Part shown: positions 13,572 to 40,223 of the stretch, piece by piece
How positions within the stretch are numbered: the stretch's first letter is position 1
Layout: each line of letters begins with the position of its first letter
NCBI GenBank assembly: GCA_944326565.1
Contig: CALVEL010000005.1
Location: 1-64,000 of the forward strand
DNA length: 64,000 bases
Direction: 5' to 3'
From: Candidatus Gastranaerophilales bacterium
GTDB lineage: Bacteria; Cyanobacteriota; Vampirovibrionia; Gastranaerophilales; Gastranaerophilaceae
Made by a program: the position numbers and the translations under genes
Notes under the pieces: generated by a model
What the model was told of the DNA's origin: nothing
What the model saw: only the letters and a program-made list of their open reading frames with translations
The model's database searches: none

Positions 13572-14501
13572 ATGAATATTCAGCCAATATCTGCAGGATA
13601 CATCAATATTAAAAATAATAAAGTTACAAAAAATTCGAATAATTATAATCCTCCAATTTTTAGAGGAGAAGAAAACAATAATATTGATAAAAGAAGAATT
13701 GCAAATGCAATGAAAGCATTAGCGCTAAGTTCTGCTGTTGCGTTCACCCCTGCAATAATTTCTTGCGGTACTGATGATCTGGATGAATATTGCGATCATC
13801 CAAACCATATAGATCCACCATATCCATCAGATTCGACTAATGTGGGGAAAGATACAATTTATACAGGTAAAACATATGAAACTCCTGAAATTAAAATGCT
13901 AAGATATAAAGTAGATGGCAATGACACTACTAAAATAGGTTCTGTAACATTCTCAAAAAGTATTATACATGTACCTTATAATGCACATAAGTCATCAGAA
14001 TTACAGACTGTCGCAAAATTTATTGATATATTAGGACTAAAAACTAAAAATATAGATAAAGAATATGTAGCAACAAAAGCATTTGATTATAATATGATTC
14101 CAGCACAACTTACTTGGCTGAACGAAAGAACAGGAACTGTAAATCAGCTTAAATACAACGGGTATGACAGCGAAGATAATAAAATTAAAATGGATCTGAT
14201 ATCAATACCTGCAGATTCTAACCCTATAGAAAGACAACTCAATTTAATAGTCGCTGGTAATAATAAACTTCTTGTACACATCTTTGATAAAGAAGGCATA
14301 CAAAAATATGATGAACAGTTGTATACTCTTGATAATGATACGATTTCACAATTTAATATAAACGAAAATAACAATTTTGAAAAAATTTGTGAATATTCAA
14401 AAGGAAAAGATTCTACAACAGTATCAGTAAAAGATAAATCCGGCAATAAATATAATCTTGCAAACTTTGATGTTCTGACTGCAATTTCAGAAGAAAAATA
14501 A
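13572..14501 (+). CDS. Putative lipoprotein with an N-terminal leader before its signal segment
   Basis: No known family recognised. The start was set at ATG 13572, 6 nt after AAAGGAG; an upstream in-frame start has no ribosome site. The 309-residue protein opens with MNIQPISAGY and an Asn-rich stretch that ends in P-P-I-F-R-G (residue 32). Only then comes a hydrophobic segment (about 46-64) ending in I-I-S-C with Cys65, which matches a lipobox. The remaining 245 residues are soluble-looking and beta-rich. A signal segment placed 45 residues in is odd. The leader resembles those of four other proteins in this window. It lies between two carboxylate-metabolism genes, perhaps by chance. Confidence 0.65.
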   Translation: MNIQPISAGYINIKNNKVTKNSNNYNPPIFRGEENNNIDKRRIANAMKALALSSAVAFTPAIISCGTDDLDEYCDHPNHIDPPYPSDSTNVGKDTIYTGKTYETPEIKMLRYKVDGNDTTKIGSVTFSKSIIHVPYNAHKSSELQTVAKFIDILGLKTKNIDKEYVATKAFDYNMIPAQLTWLNERTGTVNQLKYNGYDSEDNKIKMDLISIPADSNPIERQLNLIVAGNNKLLVHIFDKEGIQKYDEQLYTLDNDTISQFNINENNNFEKICEYSKGKDSTTVSVKDKSGNKYNLANFDVLTAISEEK

Positions 14502-20495: not shown

Positions 20496-20858
20496 ATGAA
20501 TATACAAAACATCCCGAATTCTACATCCTTTGGATGCAAACTTAATACAATTAGTGTCATAGAAAGCACAACCGGAAAATTTTTAAAAAACGGAAATAAT
20601 GTTGAACGTATAAAACTAATCTCAAATGTTCTTGACATTAAAAAGAAAGATTTAGAGGTATTAACAAGAGATCCTCTAATAGGATTTATATGTTTTATAT
20701 CTTCAGGTAAAATTTTATCAGAAAATAATCCCCATATATTACCCATAATTGAAAAATTAAAACAAATTATGAAAATTGACAAAACCGGTGAAACAACCAA
20801 TGCTATGGTAGAAAAAATAATTAACAAATATGGACACGAATTAGACCTTAAAATATAA
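20496..20858 (+). CDS. Small hypothetical protein with MNIQNIP leader
   Basis: Unknown 120-residue protein, with AAAAGGAG before the ATG and a bidirectional terminator after it, so it is a real short transcription unit. It starts MNIQNIPNSTSFG, like the leaders of the larger unknown proteins at 13572 and 32928. The rest is a short Lys-rich, probably helical, soluble sequence with no signal peptide or membrane segment. No function can be given. Confidence 0.6.
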   Translation: MNIQNIPNSTSFGCKLNTISVIESTTGKFLKNGNNVERIKLISNVLDIKKKDLEVLTRDPLIGFICFISSGKILSENNPHILPIIEKLKQIMKIDKTGETTNAMVEKIINKYGHELDLKI

Positions 20859-30635: not shown

Positions 30636-31283
30636 ATGAAAAACATAGAAGAAAAAAATGCTTTTACAATGTCTGAAGTATTAATTACACTTGGGATAAT
30701 AGGGATAGTCGCCTCAATGACACTACCAGCAGTAATTACGAAGCACAAAAGAAAAGTCGCAGAAACAAAGCTGGCGAAATTTTACTCAGTAATAAATCAA
30801 GCCCTAAGAATGTCAATCGCAGAACACGGAGAAATTTTAATAGATAACACAAATAAATCAGACACAAACAACTCAGAATATATAGAAAAGTGGTATAAAG
30901 AAAATATAACAAAATACATTAAAACAATCCATGAAGAAGGCTCTGATAAAACCAATGACTACTATAAAGTTGCATTCATCGACGGCTCAGGCTTTAACAG
31001 CTATATGAGCGCTTCAAATACGACAACCGGCAAAAGTTCTTTATATATATTTTACTGCCTAAACTATAAGATTTGCGACTATGGACATTTTGAGGGAGAA
31101 AACCAATTTTTATTTACCTACTCTCCTGAAAAACAACAGGTAATCCCAACATACCGAGGGCAAAGTATTAACAATTTAAAAAGAAGCTGTTATTCAGAAA
31201 ATGAGGGAAGCAGACATGGCTGTACAGCATTAATTGAAGCTAACGGCTGGAAAATTCCTGATGACTATCCTTGGATTAAATAG
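30636..31283 (+). CDS. Type IV pseudopilin-like protein (module 1)
   Basis: The 215-residue protein has a prepilin N-terminus: a short basic leader, cleavage expected between Ala9 and Phe10 in KNA/FTMSEVLITL, Glu at +5, and a helix to about residue 32. Ala replaces the usual Gly at -1, as in its paralogue at 39591. The globular part has conserved Cys (YCLNYKIC, and GC near the end) and ends ANGWKIPDDYPWIK. It may be secreted or built into a type II secretion or pilus-like fibre. No assembly genes lie nearby. AGGGG precedes the ATG. Confidence 0.88.
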   Translation: MKNIEEKNAFTMSEVLITLGIIGIVASMTLPAVITKHKRKVAETKLAKFYSVINQALRMSIAEHGEILIDNTNKSDTNNSEYIEKWYKENITKYIKTIHEEGSDKTNDYYKVAFIDGSGFNSYMSASNTTTGKSSLYIFYCLNYKICDYGHFEGENQFLFTYSPEKQQVIPTYRGQSINNLKRSCYSENEGSRHGCTALIEANGWKIPDDYPWIK

Positions 31284-31284
31284 G

Positions 31285-32928
31285 CTATTTTACAGCAGTG
31301 AAATCGTTAATGTTTTTAGCCTTCATGTTTACTAATGAATAATCCACTGCAACATTTTGAGCTTGAGATTTTTGAGCAGCTAATTTAGCTTTACGTTTTT
31401 CTTCTGACTTATTTGTCATATAAATATTTAGCTTTGGAATACCTACACCAAGTACTATACCTGAATATAAATATCCAGCAATTTGGGCAATATTTAAAAT
31501 TCTTAATTGTTTTCTTATAGATTTACCAATCTCACCTGCTGGGATTTTCTTTGACATTTGAGAGAAAGATAAAGCCTTGCCGTCACTTGAAACTGAAGGT
31601 ATATTCAAACGTTTAAGTCCTTCAATTATAACTTCATCTCTGGTTTTTAATTTTTTCTTAAAGAATGACTTTTCATCTACATTCTTAATCAATGACTTAT
31701 TATTATCCATTGCCATTGCTGTAGCTTTGGCAACAAAATTACCAAGTACAAGCCAATTTAAGAAACCGAGAACATCTTTTACAACAGATTCTCTTAATTC
31801 ATCTTTATCACGAGCAACAATAAATCTTGACATAATAGTCATACCGTAAATTAATTTAAATTGATTTAATGTTGGTACAATACCTTTATATTGAATATTT
31901 TTAAGAAGTCCGCCCTCTTTGCGAGCCAGATCAGCAATTATACCACCACCAAAAATTGCTGCTGCAGCGGCTTTCCACAATTTAAAATTTACACTTTTAT
32001 CTTTTTCACGACCTTCAACACCAACGAAGCCGTCACTTCCTGTTTTTTTCTTAGTTAAATAGATATTTAACGGCTGAATTGACATACCAACCATTGATCC
32101 TATTGCCATACCAACAATAGTTCTTGCTGTATTAATACGTTTAAGACCGTTTATAAATTTATTTTTAGTAAAATCAGTTTCTTTAAATGCATCTATGACA
32201 TTTTGCTTAGTAAATGACTTTGCTACATTATAAATATTTTCTACAAATCCAGATAATGAATTTGTCGTTTCTTTTCCGCAGGCCTTTAATTTATAATCAG
32301 ATTCAAATCCTGTAGCCTCTGTTAAATAATTTACCAAATACTGCTTTGTAGAATTAGGAATTGTATCAGAGTCTATATCAGGATTATTTAATACTGACAT
32401 ATATCGTTTTACAATATTGTCCACATCATAATCATTCAAATATTTTTGATTATCTGATGCATTTGTAGAAAGATTTTTAAATACATCTTTCAATGTAACT
32501 TCAAGATTTTCTGAAGCTGATTTTGATTTATTATTTTGAATATTATTGTGGAAAAGATTTCCAATAATATCAAAAGTTTCATTATCTGCAAAAATCTTAT
32601 CTGCTCTAATACCAAAGCTTTTATTAAAAGCTAAGGAACAAGCTAAAGCAGCCATTGAACCATACACACCAATTAAAGAATGGTTAATCGTACCTGATGC
32701 TTCTCTACGACCTGTTTCCATACCTGCAGCAGGTCCTCTGTTAATAAAATCAACAGTAGTTCTAGGTAATACCATTGATCCTACATCTACAGCATTAGCT
32801 CCCCAAGCTTGGTTTGTATCTAAAAAACGAAGTCCGACATTCAGCGCGTCACCAAAACCTGTAAAATTCTGCTGATTTTTATTGTCTTTATTATTTAATT
32901 GATATTGGGGTATGTTTTGAATTTTCAT
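31285..32928 (-). CDS. Multi-spanning membrane protein of unknown family, paralogue 1
   Basis: Not recognised. This 547-residue protein starts with MKIQNIPQYQLNNKDNKNQQ and N-F-T-G (F22, G24), the shared leader. Several hydrophobic segments follow (about 84-100, 270-292, 318-336, 392-414 and 487-510). It shares LPRT-x-V near residue 53, QP-(L/I)-N-x-(Y/W) near 287 and RDKDELRESVVKD near 385 with its upstream neighbour, so the two are diverged tandem duplicates. AAGGAG precedes the ATG and the gap to the neighbour is 10 nt. Function unknown. Confidence 0.65.
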   Translation of the reverse strand: MKIQNIPQYQLNNKDNKNQQNFTGFGDALNVGLRFLDTNQAWGANAVDVGSMVLPRTTVDFINRGPAAGMETGRREASGTINHSLIGVYGSMAALACSLAFNKSFGIRADKIFADNETFDIIGNLFHNNIQNNKSKSASENLEVTLKDVFKNLSTNASDNQKYLNDYDVDNIVKRYMSVLNNPDIDSDTIPNSTKQYLVNYLTEATGFESDYKLKACGKETTNSLSGFVENIYNVAKSFTKQNVIDAFKETDFTKNKFINGLKRINTARTIVGMAIGSMVGMSIQPLNIYLTKKKTGSDGFVGVEGREKDKSVNFKLWKAAAAAIFGGGIIADLARKEGGLLKNIQYKGIVPTLNQFKLIYGMTIMSRFIVARDKDELRESVVKDVLGFLNWLVLGNFVAKATAMAMDNNKSLIKNVDEKSFFKKKLKTRDEVIIEGLKRLNIPSVSSDGKALSFSQMSKKIPAGEIGKSIRKQLRILNIAQIAGYLYSGIVLGVGIPKLNIYMTNKSEEKRKAKLAAQKSQAQNVAVDYSLVNMKAKNINDFTAVK

Positions 32929-32938
32929 GAATTTCTCC

Positions 32939-34717
32939 TTACGAATTTAAAAATGAATTTAGTGTCTTAACGGCTGCATTGGATGACTCTAAAGTCTCTT
33001 TTGTCGACTCCGCAGCCGATGTACCGGCGCCTGTCTTACCATTAGCCGACTTTTGCACCGCTTTTAAGTTCGCAAGATCTTCTTTCGCTCTATTTTTATT
33101 AGTCTGCGTTCTTGTATAAAGTGGGATAAATATACCTAACGAAATTAGTGAAAACGCCAAATTACCGATTTGACAAATCGTTCTTAATTTCTTATCTGAC
33201 GGAAGTGCTAACTCATCAGTTGATTTTAAAGAGGTGTGTTTAGCCCAATTCCAGAATTTTTGTAAAACATTTGCATTAGCATCCACCTTTTTTAATCTGT
33301 TAATTAATTTTACTTTTCCGCCTTTCATATGCTCAATTAAAGTTGCAATACCTTTAGCTGCATAATCACCTAGGAAATAAAAACTTGCAAATGTTGCAAT
33401 ATCTCTTACAGTTGATTCTCTTAATTCATTTCTGTCTTCTGATGCTGCCATTCGGCTTGCAAATGTTGCAGTTGAAATGATACGGGCCTGATCCATTGTC
33501 GGGAAAAGTCCTTTAAACTGATATAAAGAACTTAAACTAGGCTTATCCATAATCATAGATAATCCGCATACTCCAAGCATAGAACCTACTGAAATAATCT
33601 TTTGTTTTAATAAATCACCTTTTTCTTTAGATGACAATTCTTTATATTCTTTTTTCTCTTGATAATCATTATAAATTGGCGCACCTTTTCTGCCTGAAAG
33701 TTTATGCGTTATCCATCTGTTTATCGGCTGGGCTGAAATTGCAAGCGGAATAATTAAACTTAGCCCGCCTAAACTTTTCCAATTTACTAAGCGTTTAGCT
33801 TTTTGGAAGTATTTTGAAAGTTCTTCAGCTGTTTTTATTCCGTTTTCTTTTGCACCATGCAAAACTTTAGGAGTATCTTTGCAGAATGATGCTAAATTGT
33901 TACCCAAATACTGTTCTTCACCTACAAAACGTATATTTTCTGATATATGAGTAATACCAACTAAATTTTGGTAAGCTTTTTTAGTATTTTTGTATTTCCC
34001 GTCTATTGCAGCTTTAGCTAATATATCCAGTGCTTCCTCAGCTTCCTTTTTCAATTTTACTTTTGAAATAGCTTCTTCAATTGAATTTGCAGCTCTAACT
34101 TCATCTGTATTATCAGCTAATAATTCTACAAATTTTTTCCTACCTTCTTGCGTATAAGCATCTCCGTCAACACCTTCTAATGATAAAATTGACCTTTTAA
34201 AGAAATCTTTATAATTTTCAATTGTAGGTTCACCTGATTTATAAAATTTCGCTATCTTATCATAAGCTTCATTATTAGCCCAATTGTTTATCAAGTTTTT
34301 ATCAAATTTACCCATTATTGGTCTATTAAATAAAGTACCTGCACCCATTACGACAAAGCTAGGCAAAATACAATTAATAAAAAGTCCTGAAAATTCTCTT
34401 CTAAAAGCTTCAAATCCGCCAAATATATTTAATTGTCTTTTTTCTTTACCATCTTTATCCAGTATAGGATTACCATTTTCATCTTTTTTCTTTGAGCCTG
34501 CATATGTCTCTACAATAGTTCTTGGAATAATTGCTGTAGATAAATCTAATACTGAAACATTAAGCATTGGATGTTCTTCACATTTTTGAACACCTTTTAC
34601 CAACAAATCGACAATACCACCTTCAAAAGTTGGTTGTTTTACAATCTTATTATTTGTAATACTCTTTTCAGGGGTATTCTTTTTATTTACGCTACTTATA
34701 CTAACTTTTTCTATCAT
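32939..34717 (-). CDS. Multi-spanning membrane protein of unknown family, paralogue 2
   Basis: Not recognised. The frame extends to a GTG at 34744, but I prefer ATG 34717, which gives MIEKVSISSV and then Q-P-T-F-E-G-G (F31, G33), the leader seen in its paralogue. Neither start has a Shine-Dalgarno. The 592 residues include hydrophobic segments around 120, 345, 400-420 and 545. Motifs shared with the downstream paralogue: IPRTIVE, SAQPINRWITHK and SEDRNELRESTVRD. The C-terminal 50 residues are Ala/Ser/Lys-rich and polar. It is the first gene of the pair. Confidence 0.62.
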   Translation of the reverse strand: MIEKVSISSVNKKNTPEKSITNNKIVKQPTFEGGIVDLLVKGVQKCEEHPMLNVSVLDLSTAIIPRTIVETYAGSKKKDENGNPILDKDGKEKRQLNIFGGFEAFRREFSGLFINCILPSFVVMGAGTLFNRPIMGKFDKNLINNWANNEAYDKIAKFYKSGEPTIENYKDFFKRSILSLEGVDGDAYTQEGRKKFVELLADNTDEVRAANSIEEAISKVKLKKEAEEALDILAKAAIDGKYKNTKKAYQNLVGITHISENIRFVGEEQYLGNNLASFCKDTPKVLHGAKENGIKTAEELSKYFQKAKRLVNWKSLGGLSLIIPLAISAQPINRWITHKLSGRKGAPIYNDYQEKKEYKELSSKEKGDLLKQKIISVGSMLGVCGLSMIMDKPSLSSLYQFKGLFPTMDQARIISTATFASRMAASEDRNELRESTVRDIATFASFYFLGDYAAKGIATLIEHMKGGKVKLINRLKKVDANANVLQKFWNWAKHTSLKSTDELALPSDKKLRTICQIGNLAFSLISLGIFIPLYTRTQTNKNRAKEDLANLKAVQKSANGKTGAGTSAAESTKETLESSNAAVKTLNSFLNS

Positions 34718-38682: not shown

Positions 38683-39150
38683 TCAAGATGTCTGTTTTTT
38701 TTCAAGCTTTTCATACTGTTTTATAAGTCTTGGCACCCAATCTTCTAATAGATTATTATACTTTTTTATAAATCTTTCATCAGTAATTTTACAAGGATAC
38801 CCGCCCGTTGAATAAAATGCATACTCATTATCATTTTTTACATGCAATATTTCAAAATCACATAATTCTTCACCTTTTTTGCTCATGTGAATTCTATGCC
38901 ATACGGAGTTGTTATATTTAAAAGAAAATTCTTTGTCACCGTTTTTCACACTTAAAATAACAGGGGTTCTTGAGACTCTATCGTACTTTTTAGAAGCAAT
39001 ATCTTCTATTTTTTTTATATAACTACAGCTTTTTTCAGTCAAAATCTGCTTTGGTTCAAACATTTTAGATACAGACATTGAAAATGATTTGAACCAATTG
39101 CCTGTATAGACAGGATTGTAATTTTCTTTCGGGGTTGAATGTATTTTCAT
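38683..39150 (-). CDS. Hypothetical protein with MKI...YxG leader
   Basis: Unknown soluble protein of 155 residues. I chose ATG 39150 since AAAGGA lies about 9 nt before it; seven codons upstream is another ATG (39171). It begins MKIHSTPKENYNPVYTG (Y15, G17), similar to the leader of other unknown proteins here. The rest has a mixed alpha/beta pattern with HRIHMSKKGEELCDFEILHV and STGGYPCKITDERF. No membrane segment. Function unknown. Confidence 0.58.
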   Translation of the reverse strand: MKIHSTPKENYNPVYTGNWFKSFSMSVSKMFEPKQILTEKSCSYIKKIEDIASKKYDRVSRTPVILSVKNGDKEFSFKYNNSVWHRIHMSKKGEELCDFEILHVKNDNEYAFYSTGGYPCKITDERFIKKYNNLLEDWVPRLIKQYEKLEKKQTS

Positions 39151-39590: not shown

Positions 39591-40223
39591 ATGAAAAAAG
39601 CATTTACTATGGCTGAAGTTTTAATTACGCTTGGAATTATAGGGATAATTGTGGCAATAACTTTACCCTCGATTATAACTAAATACAAACGAAAAGCTGC
39701 CGAAACAAAACTTGCCAAATTTTATTCAGTCATGAATCAGGCAATAAGAATGTCTATTGCAGAGCACGGTGAAATTCTTATTGATAACACAAACAAAACC
39801 GATGCAGCAAATGCTGAATACATTGAAAAGTGGTATAAAGAAAATATCACGAAATATATAAAAACAATACATGATGAAGGTGCTGATAAACACAGTGATT
39901 ATTATAAAGTTGCATTTATTGATGGAAGCGGATTTAACAGCTTTATGAGCGGGTCATCTGATATCACAGGTAAAAGCAATCTATACATTTTTTACTGTTT
40001 GAACTATGAAATCTGCGAACTTGGACAATATGACGGTGAAAACCAATTTTTATTTGTATATAGTCCAACAAAAATGATGGTAGAACCATGTTATTCAGGC
40101 AGTTCGATAACAAACCTTAAAAACGGTTGTTACGATAAAAATAAAGGAAACAGACACGGCTGTGCTGCACTTATTAAAGCGAACGGCTGGAAAATTCCTG
40201 ATGATTACCCGTGGATAAGATAG
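39591..40223 (+). CDS. Type IV pseudopilin-like protein (module 2)
   Basis: Paralogue of the protein at 30636. From ATG 39591 (GGAGG 5 nt upstream; the frame is open 18 codons further, without a ribosome site) it has 210 residues. The leader is only KKA/FTMAEVLITL with Ala at -1 and Glu at +5, followed by the pilin helix. Much of the globular part matches its paralogue: LAKFYSVMNQAIRMSIAEHG, IEKWYKENITKYIKTIH, YKVAFIDGSGFNS, and the end GCAALIKANGWKIPDDYPW. Internal loops around residues 120-170 differ most. Confidence 0.88.
   Translation: MKKAFTMAEVLITLGIIGIIVAITLPSIITKYKRKAAETKLAKFYSVMNQAIRMSIAEHGEILIDNTNKTDAANAEYIEKWYKENITKYIKTIHDEGADKHSDYYKVAFIDGSGFNSFMSGSSDITGKSNLYIFYCLNYEICELGQYDGENQFLFVYSPTKMMVEPCYSGSSITNLKNGCYDKNKGNRHGCAALIKANGWKIPDDYPWIR

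Follow-up and report, generated by a model that had tools for sequence, protein, structure and literature searches.

An N-terminal leader carried on proteins with otherwise unrelated bodies is real in the Gastranaerophilales, and it is larger in extent than was reported in the initial annotation, which drew attention to five N-termini in a 64,000-nucleotide stretch of DNA (the window) from one member of the order. The leader is a two-part module that is conserved at the level of the protein and has a flexible linker between its parts. Judged from sequence comparison, the five N-termini may well represent a lineage-specific bipartite targeting leader, a reading for which the considerations on the two sides appear about evenly balanced. 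Gastranaerophilales are common, mostly uncultured relatives of the cyanobacteria in animal guts, and to our knowledge their action on hosts and neighbours is largely unknown.

Anatomy of the leader

The first part of the leader reads M-(K/N/Q/R)-(I/V)-x-x-(I/V)-(N/S/P) and the second reads (N/S)-F-(K/T/N/S/Q/R/E/G)-(G/A/S); in 36 of 54 cases the Phe is preceded by N or S. Between them lies a disordered linker of about 0-30 residues that is rich in N, S, T and Q and holds hardly any D or E. Residue 6 is I, V or L in 30 of the 45 order-wide pattern matches, though the pattern left this residue free, and it is enriched in leader-like starts relative to other M-x-(I/V) starts (p=0.016), as is N/S/P at residue 7 (p=0.001). 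The Phe falls between residues 8 and 41 (median about 14), many spacers are shorter than 10 residues, and the shortest leaders are 10 residues long in all (MKISPVNFKG and MKVNAISFTG). The Phe and Gly codons of the leader match the codon usage of the bodies, which argues that selection acts on the protein and rules out a signal at the level of DNA.

A leader that is N-terminal and disordered with compact hydrophobic anchors might control stability or processing, for example as an N-terminal degron, as an adaptor site for an AAA protease, or as a propeptide cut near F-x-G. We regard this as improbable, since no constraint of the kind that a cleavage site would show is seen just past the leader Gly, and the leader occurs in a single lineage and on orphan proteins only.

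Five N-termini in the window

On re-reading of the window all five N-termini were recovered where they had first been noted. The first belongs to a predicted lipoprotein of 309 residues (13572..14501, plus strand). Its leader (13572..13667, plus strand; MNIQPISAGYINIKNNKVTKNSNNYNPPIFRG, residues 1-32) runs from MNIQPIS to PPIFRG with F30-G32 and has a score of 12.6 in the profile described below. About 16 residues past the leader, consistent with the initial observation that a signal segment follows it, comes a hydrophobic segment and then a lipobox Cys (13716..13766, plus strand; residues 49-65, ALALSSAVAFTPAIISC), which is the basis for its assignment as a lipoprotein; S64-C65 is invariant in 11 orthologues. 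In an AlphaFold2 model residues 1-97 are disordered (pLDDT <50) and the body is all-beta, and a fold search with the body returned weak matches to beta-sheet and barrel structures only. A soluble protein of 120 residues without a Pfam match (20496..20858, plus strand) carries an F-G-C variant with F12-G13 (20496..20537, plus strand; MNIQNIPNSTSFGC; score 11.3).

The remaining three genes lie on the minus strand. A helical, probably membrane protein of 547 residues (31285..32928) begins with a leader (32857..32928; MKIQNIPQYQLNNKDNKNQQNFTG, residues 1-24) that runs from MKIQNIP to NFTG with F22-G24, and its score of 18.8 is the top score in the genome sample. Residues 1-23 have pLDDT <50 in the AlphaFold2 model and a helix starts directly after the leader; the protein has no fold match in the PDB, and homologues occur in 110 of 117 genomes of the order. 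Beside it lies a paralogue of 592 residues (32939..34717; BLASTP E=5e-20, 23% identity over most of the length) with a divergent leader (34619..34717; MIEKVSISSVNKKNTPEKSITNNKIVKQPTFEG) that runs from MIEKVSISS to TFEG with F31-G33. This N-terminus is the weakest of the five: it aligns with the leader of the 547-residue protein, its independent profile score is below 3, and its ATG has no usable ribosome site, a feature that the other four starts possess. The last leader (39100..39150; MKIHSTPKENYNPVYTG), from MKIHSTP to VYTG with Y15-G17, is on a soluble protein of 155 residues without a Pfam match (38683..39150) and scores 5.5, a level at which chance accounts for about 3-4 of 28 matches.

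The initial description of these N-termini holds in part. A start of M-(K/N)-I or a related form is found at 13572, 32928 and 39150, and 34717 lacks M-x-I. The stretch that follows is Asn-rich as claimed; rather than being specifically Lys-rich it is N/S/T/Q-rich and poor in acidic residues. The aromatic-x-Gly end is present in 13572, 32928, 34717 and 39150, and more generally the last position may be G, A or S. Because the genes at 31285-32928 and 32939-34717 are tandem paralogues, the N-termini said to stand on five different bodies stand on four independent ones.

Two further features of this region are of separate interest. The tandem genes at 31285-34717 belong to an uncharacterised helical family, present in 110/117 genomes, that has conserved I-P-R-T, E-T-x-R-R-E and D-E-L-R-E-S motifs and no Pfam family. 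Separate prepilin-like genes at 30636-31283 and 39591-40223, and at many other loci, share the start F-T-x-A/S-E-V-L-I-T-L-G-I-I-G and form an expanded pseudopilin family; one of them (L052:5837) falls in DUF6613.

Statistical evidence for the leader

Genes were called with a simple finder written for the purpose, with starts chosen by ribosome-site scoring, in 847 kb of the window's own genome sampled in stretches (about 44% of 1.87 Mb; 32% GC). Counted in the window only, the prespecified pattern falls short of significance, with 3 observed against 1.07 expected and 22 of 200 shuffles reaching 3. Outside the window, among the 738 genes called in a further 783 kb of this genome, aromatic-x-Gly occurs 11 times against 4.2 expected and N-(F/Y)-x-G 6 times against 0.40, neither count being reached in 200 shuffles, and the reversed motif occurs 0 times against 0.47 expected. 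Aromatic-x-(A/S) is also in excess in this set (22 versus 11.4).

An independent profile consisting of two parts and a free linker was trained on 32 leaders from body families absent from the own genome, whose proteins were kept out of the training; the training leaders were gathered with a motif filter and the profile thus encodes the motif. It was scanned against 795 own-genome proteins, with shuffled N-termini and internal Met starts as nulls. At a score of at least 8 the profile finds 17 of the 795, compared with 0.90 for shuffled N-termini and 0.00 for internal Met starts, and at a score of at least 6 it finds 24, compared with 2.2 and 1.55 (Poisson tails about 1e-16). One false positive is expected among the 17, and one is evident (L067:6212, which by eye has an IspD-like start). 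By a hand count, some 26 of the 816 genes predicted in the own-genome sample encode leader carriers (~3%). Four sister families of the class gave 0 matches at a score of at least 6 among 341 proteins at 27-43% GC.

These results bear directly on whether the leader could be an artefact of composition, with AT-rich starts favouring M-K-I or M-N-I and Asn-rich tails, and F-x-G arising by chance. The GC content of the genome and the lack of significance within the window would both suit such an origin. The excess of 17 over 0.9 and 0, the absence of matches in sister families across their range of GC, and the conservation of the leader among orthologues make it exceedingly improbable, and the profile test with its nulls rules out composition or a start-codon effect as the source. 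The profile scan of Gastranaerophilales N-termini that the initial annotation had proposed thus shows enrichment at the N-terminus, none at internal Met starts at a score of at least 8, and at least 60 different bodies downstream, and its counter-hypothesis, that matches would be random N-termini at the rate expected from composition, failed.

Conservation among orthologues and distribution

Genomes are referred to by anonymous kinship labels (f1-f15); f1 is taken to be the gut family on the basis of how homologous named records are labelled, and f2-f5 were sampled through orthologues only. Orthologues hold both ends of the leader while the Phe shifts between residues 8 and 33. In the family of the 547-residue protein M-x-(I/V) and aromatic-x-small are found in 30/30 f1 orthologues and F-x-G in 29/30, the position of the Phe varying between residues 19 and 32, and several homologues from f2-f7 have S/A-F-K-G/S at the equivalent place. 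The lipoprotein family keeps the MNIQ(P/A)(I/V)S start, the Phe and an invariant S-C around a spacer of 3 to 22 residues, such that the Phe is at residue 11 in L260 and at residue 30 in the window protein. In most f1 copies of an amidohydrolase the leader lies 1-5 residues before the metal-binding I-D-x-H-x-H. The orthologues from the sister family f7 (L288 and L289) start MKIVKKYIDMHVHVG, with an open frame too short to hold a leader, as are the open frames in some f1 genomes of genus g14. The presence of the amidohydrolase leader in f1 and its absence in f7 indicate that the leader is an added module. A separate observation concerns 5′-nucleotidase-like proteins, which in f1 lack a Sec signal and begin with polar N-rich tails (L073:1595-3175, minus strand; L306-L315; L317-L319) and in f2-f6 relatives have Sec signals, a comparison in which two subfamilies may be mixed; the f1 proteins may form a subfamily of their own that is naturally cytoplasmic.

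At the DNA level, leader matches outnumber those of the reversed control in f1 (278 versus 92 across 95 genomes). The excess is marginal in f2-f7 (50 versus 38, p=0.035) and absent elsewhere in the class (98 versus 89). A first, loose DNA pattern was little above its control because the reading frame was not enforced. A stricter pattern applied to 84,980 species, each represented by a single genome, gave 53 matching stretches, 38 of them in frame, and all 21 that carried a Gastranaerophilales label were in frame and open. Among the other 32, 15 were out of frame and most of the remaining 17 came from gut genomes, where the bodies of several are homologues of known leader proteins. A small number of in-frame matches bear Bacilli or Tenericutes labels and appear to be chance. 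This distribution places the leader in the Gastranaerophilales, above all in the gut family f1.

Proteins that carry the leader

Clustered by body sequence, 82 leader proteins from the own and other genomes form 60 families. Alignment of 42 leader proteins yields the consensus MKIxxINxxxxxFKG and nothing conserved beyond it. Hydrophobic segments are absent from 52 of the 60 families, seven have at least one, and one is the lipoprotein. A Pfam domain above cut-off was found in only 5 of 62 leader bodies compared with 14 of 20 random proteins from the same genome (p=1.3e-7), so that most carriers of the leader are orphan proteins of the lineage. The five are Amidohydro_2, a CheR-like methyltransferase, a metallophosphatase/5′-nucleotidase, an AAA protein, and a GNAT protein whose match was counted from its E-value.

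This set of carriers invites a second interpretation, in which the leader is a docking or assembly tag, a short linear motif for binding to a single partner within the cell such as a scaffold, chaperone, compartment or membrane patch, so that the carriers would be retained inside and no export takes place. The majority of carriers are soluble proteins with no Sec signal, some belong to ordinary cytoplasmic enzyme classes (the CheR-like methyltransferase, GNAT, AAA and amidohydrolase proteins), and two anchors on a flexible tether would suit a docking motif; yet the leader stays conserved on a lipoprotein that would lose it at signal cleavage. On balance we think a docking role unlikely, though it deserves serious consideration.

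Genes for leader proteins are commonly neighbours (L139:6017-7831, L145:447-2288, L148:331-2163, L118, L130, L132 and L157), and in L139, L145 and L148 the same two unrelated families adjoin. At L066:5219-7201 a leader-like protein of 660 residues (MKIYPLNN to TFGGD) has zinc-knuckle-like CxxC pairs and a C-terminal match to HNH nucleases, and could be an effector-type nuclease.

A retained flagellar-type export apparatus

A match to the FlhA family was found in 117/117 genomes of the order, hence in every leader-bearing genome (in G044 it is weak, E 2.8e-48, and a full-length gate was not seen there), compared with flagellin in 43/117. FlhA proteins across f1 are 84-97% identical to that of the own genome. 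The own genome has no flagellin and retains FliE-, FliF-, FliH-, FlhA-, FlhB-, rod- and FliK-like genes (L043:11539-17628, which is G000:C1:151.5-157.6 kb; L039:5682-8001; L073:9-7621). Such strong conservation and retention argue that the apparatus still exports something. Most gut Gastranaerophilales have incomplete sets of flagellar genes, from which loss of the flagellum was inferred (PMC4040986). Many f1 genomes also encode a second protein of ~500 residues that matches only the C-terminal half of FlhA (residues 326-697; for example G001:C6:10724-11824 and G018:C3:317601-318698). The FliK-like protein resembles leader carriers in its layout of M-N-I/V, polar tail and conserved Phe, but has F-x-x-E/Q-L/M in the place of F-x-G.

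A narrower form of the targeting reading therefore suggests itself, in which the leader would be a type III secretion signal of this apparatus equivalent to the signals of rod and hook substrates. The contrast between the counts for FlhA and flagellin, the near identity of FlhA across f1, and the presence of FlhB, FliF, FliH, rod and FliK-like proteins are all consistent with such a role, as is a leader that is N-terminal, disordered and polar with small hydrophobic residues at positions 3 and 6. Several observations weigh against it. The gate recognition motif Fxxx-phi was sought and rejected, for the fraction of hydrophobic residues after the Phe is 0.43 at +3, 0.39 at +4 and 0.33 at +5, with no peak at +4. 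The leader spacers are too short, and no leader is present on the rod proteins. Sister families have the apparatus without the leader, FlhA being 59-66% identical in f9, f14 and f15 where the leader is not enriched, so the gate is older than the leader; within the order, where all genomes have the gate, co-occurrence of gate and leader is uninformative. The missing Fxxx-phi motif, the short spacers and the occurrence of the gate elsewhere without an enriched leader lead us to consider this route doubtful.

Comparison with known N-terminal signals

N-terminal sorting leaders are known as a kind, and the Gastranaerophilales leader differs from each named class with which it was compared. It is closest in plan to the signal of early flagellar subunits (FlgD, FlgE and FlgG), which likewise has two short motifs, hydrophobic positions at 3-6, a Phe-based motif and a disordered polar tether, and for which an export apparatus is present in the genome. 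Small hydrophobic residues do occur near positions 3-7 of the leader, with I/V present at 3 by selection of the set and enriched at 6, but hydrophobic residues are not preferred at F+4. In Salmonella FlgD the two signals must be separated by at least 19 residues (PMC8983047), whereas the leader spacing is 0-30 and often less than 10. The leader is also found on enzymes, membrane proteins and lipoproteins instead of rod and hook proteins.

The position of the leader upstream of a complete Sec/lipoprotein signal at 13572 recalls the ESPR (the extended signal peptide region of autotransporters) and YSIRK-type extensions, which also precede a Sec signal; however, a Sec signal follows the leader only in lipoprotein families, and the motifs bear no resemblance. 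The leader is itself no Sec or lipoprotein signal peptide, a candidate rejected because it has no hydrophobic core, its linker is N/S/T/Q-rich, and the great majority of carrier families (52/60) lack a hydrophobic segment. Type III effector signals are N-terminal, disordered, rich in S, T, N, Q and I, poor in acidic residues and placed on varied bodies. The leader shares all of these properties, secretion of its carriers being putative, but it has two conserved anchors, and we know of no defined sequence motif in the effector signals. The double-glycine leaders of C39-peptidase ABC exporters are short, N-terminal and have G-G before the cut site. The present leader is similarly short and ends at Gly, but it has F-x-(G/A/S) in place of G-G, no cleavage-site constraint and large carrier proteins.

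Among the proteins that were scanned one by one (10 proteins for NCBIfam), the leader was matched by no Pfam or NCBIfam model. Nor was it found described in 5.4 million open-access papers searched for work that connects Gastranaerophilales or Melainabacteria to secretion, flagella, effectors or leaders. Both results are consistent with the initial suggestion that the leader was undescribed.

Proposed function

In the targeting reading, the leader would be added to a protein as a module that is read at the protein level. Because it would lie in the cytoplasm at first reading in soluble, membrane and lipoprotein carriers alike, its receptor is probably cytoplasmic or in the inner membrane. All carriers would then share one destination, the envelope or the outside being most likely. 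The order of elements at 13572, with leader, ~16 residues, hydrophobic segment and lipobox, demonstrates that a leader can stand ahead of a Sec signal. The leading candidate for the route is the retained flagellar-type apparatus, a step that we rate as doubtful on the grounds given above. A mix of carriers that includes cytoplasmic-looking enzymes, a lipoprotein with a Sec signal, and membrane proteins is poorly explained by one export route, and this counts against targeting as a whole.

A bolder version, which we advance tentatively and think on the whole unlikely, is that the F-x-G leader serves as the address label for an export pathway not previously known, by which gut Gastranaerophilales send a few per cent of their proteins, for the most part orphans and enzymes, out of the cell, and that this pathway possibly runs through a flagellum-derived apparatus without a filament. 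If the leader does direct targeting, its presence on ~3% of proteins would define a co-targeted set that nobody has listed and would offer a handle for predicting which Gastranaerophilales proteins are exported or bound to a compartment. The retention of a flagellar export apparatus in genomes without flagellin would then become a testable question.
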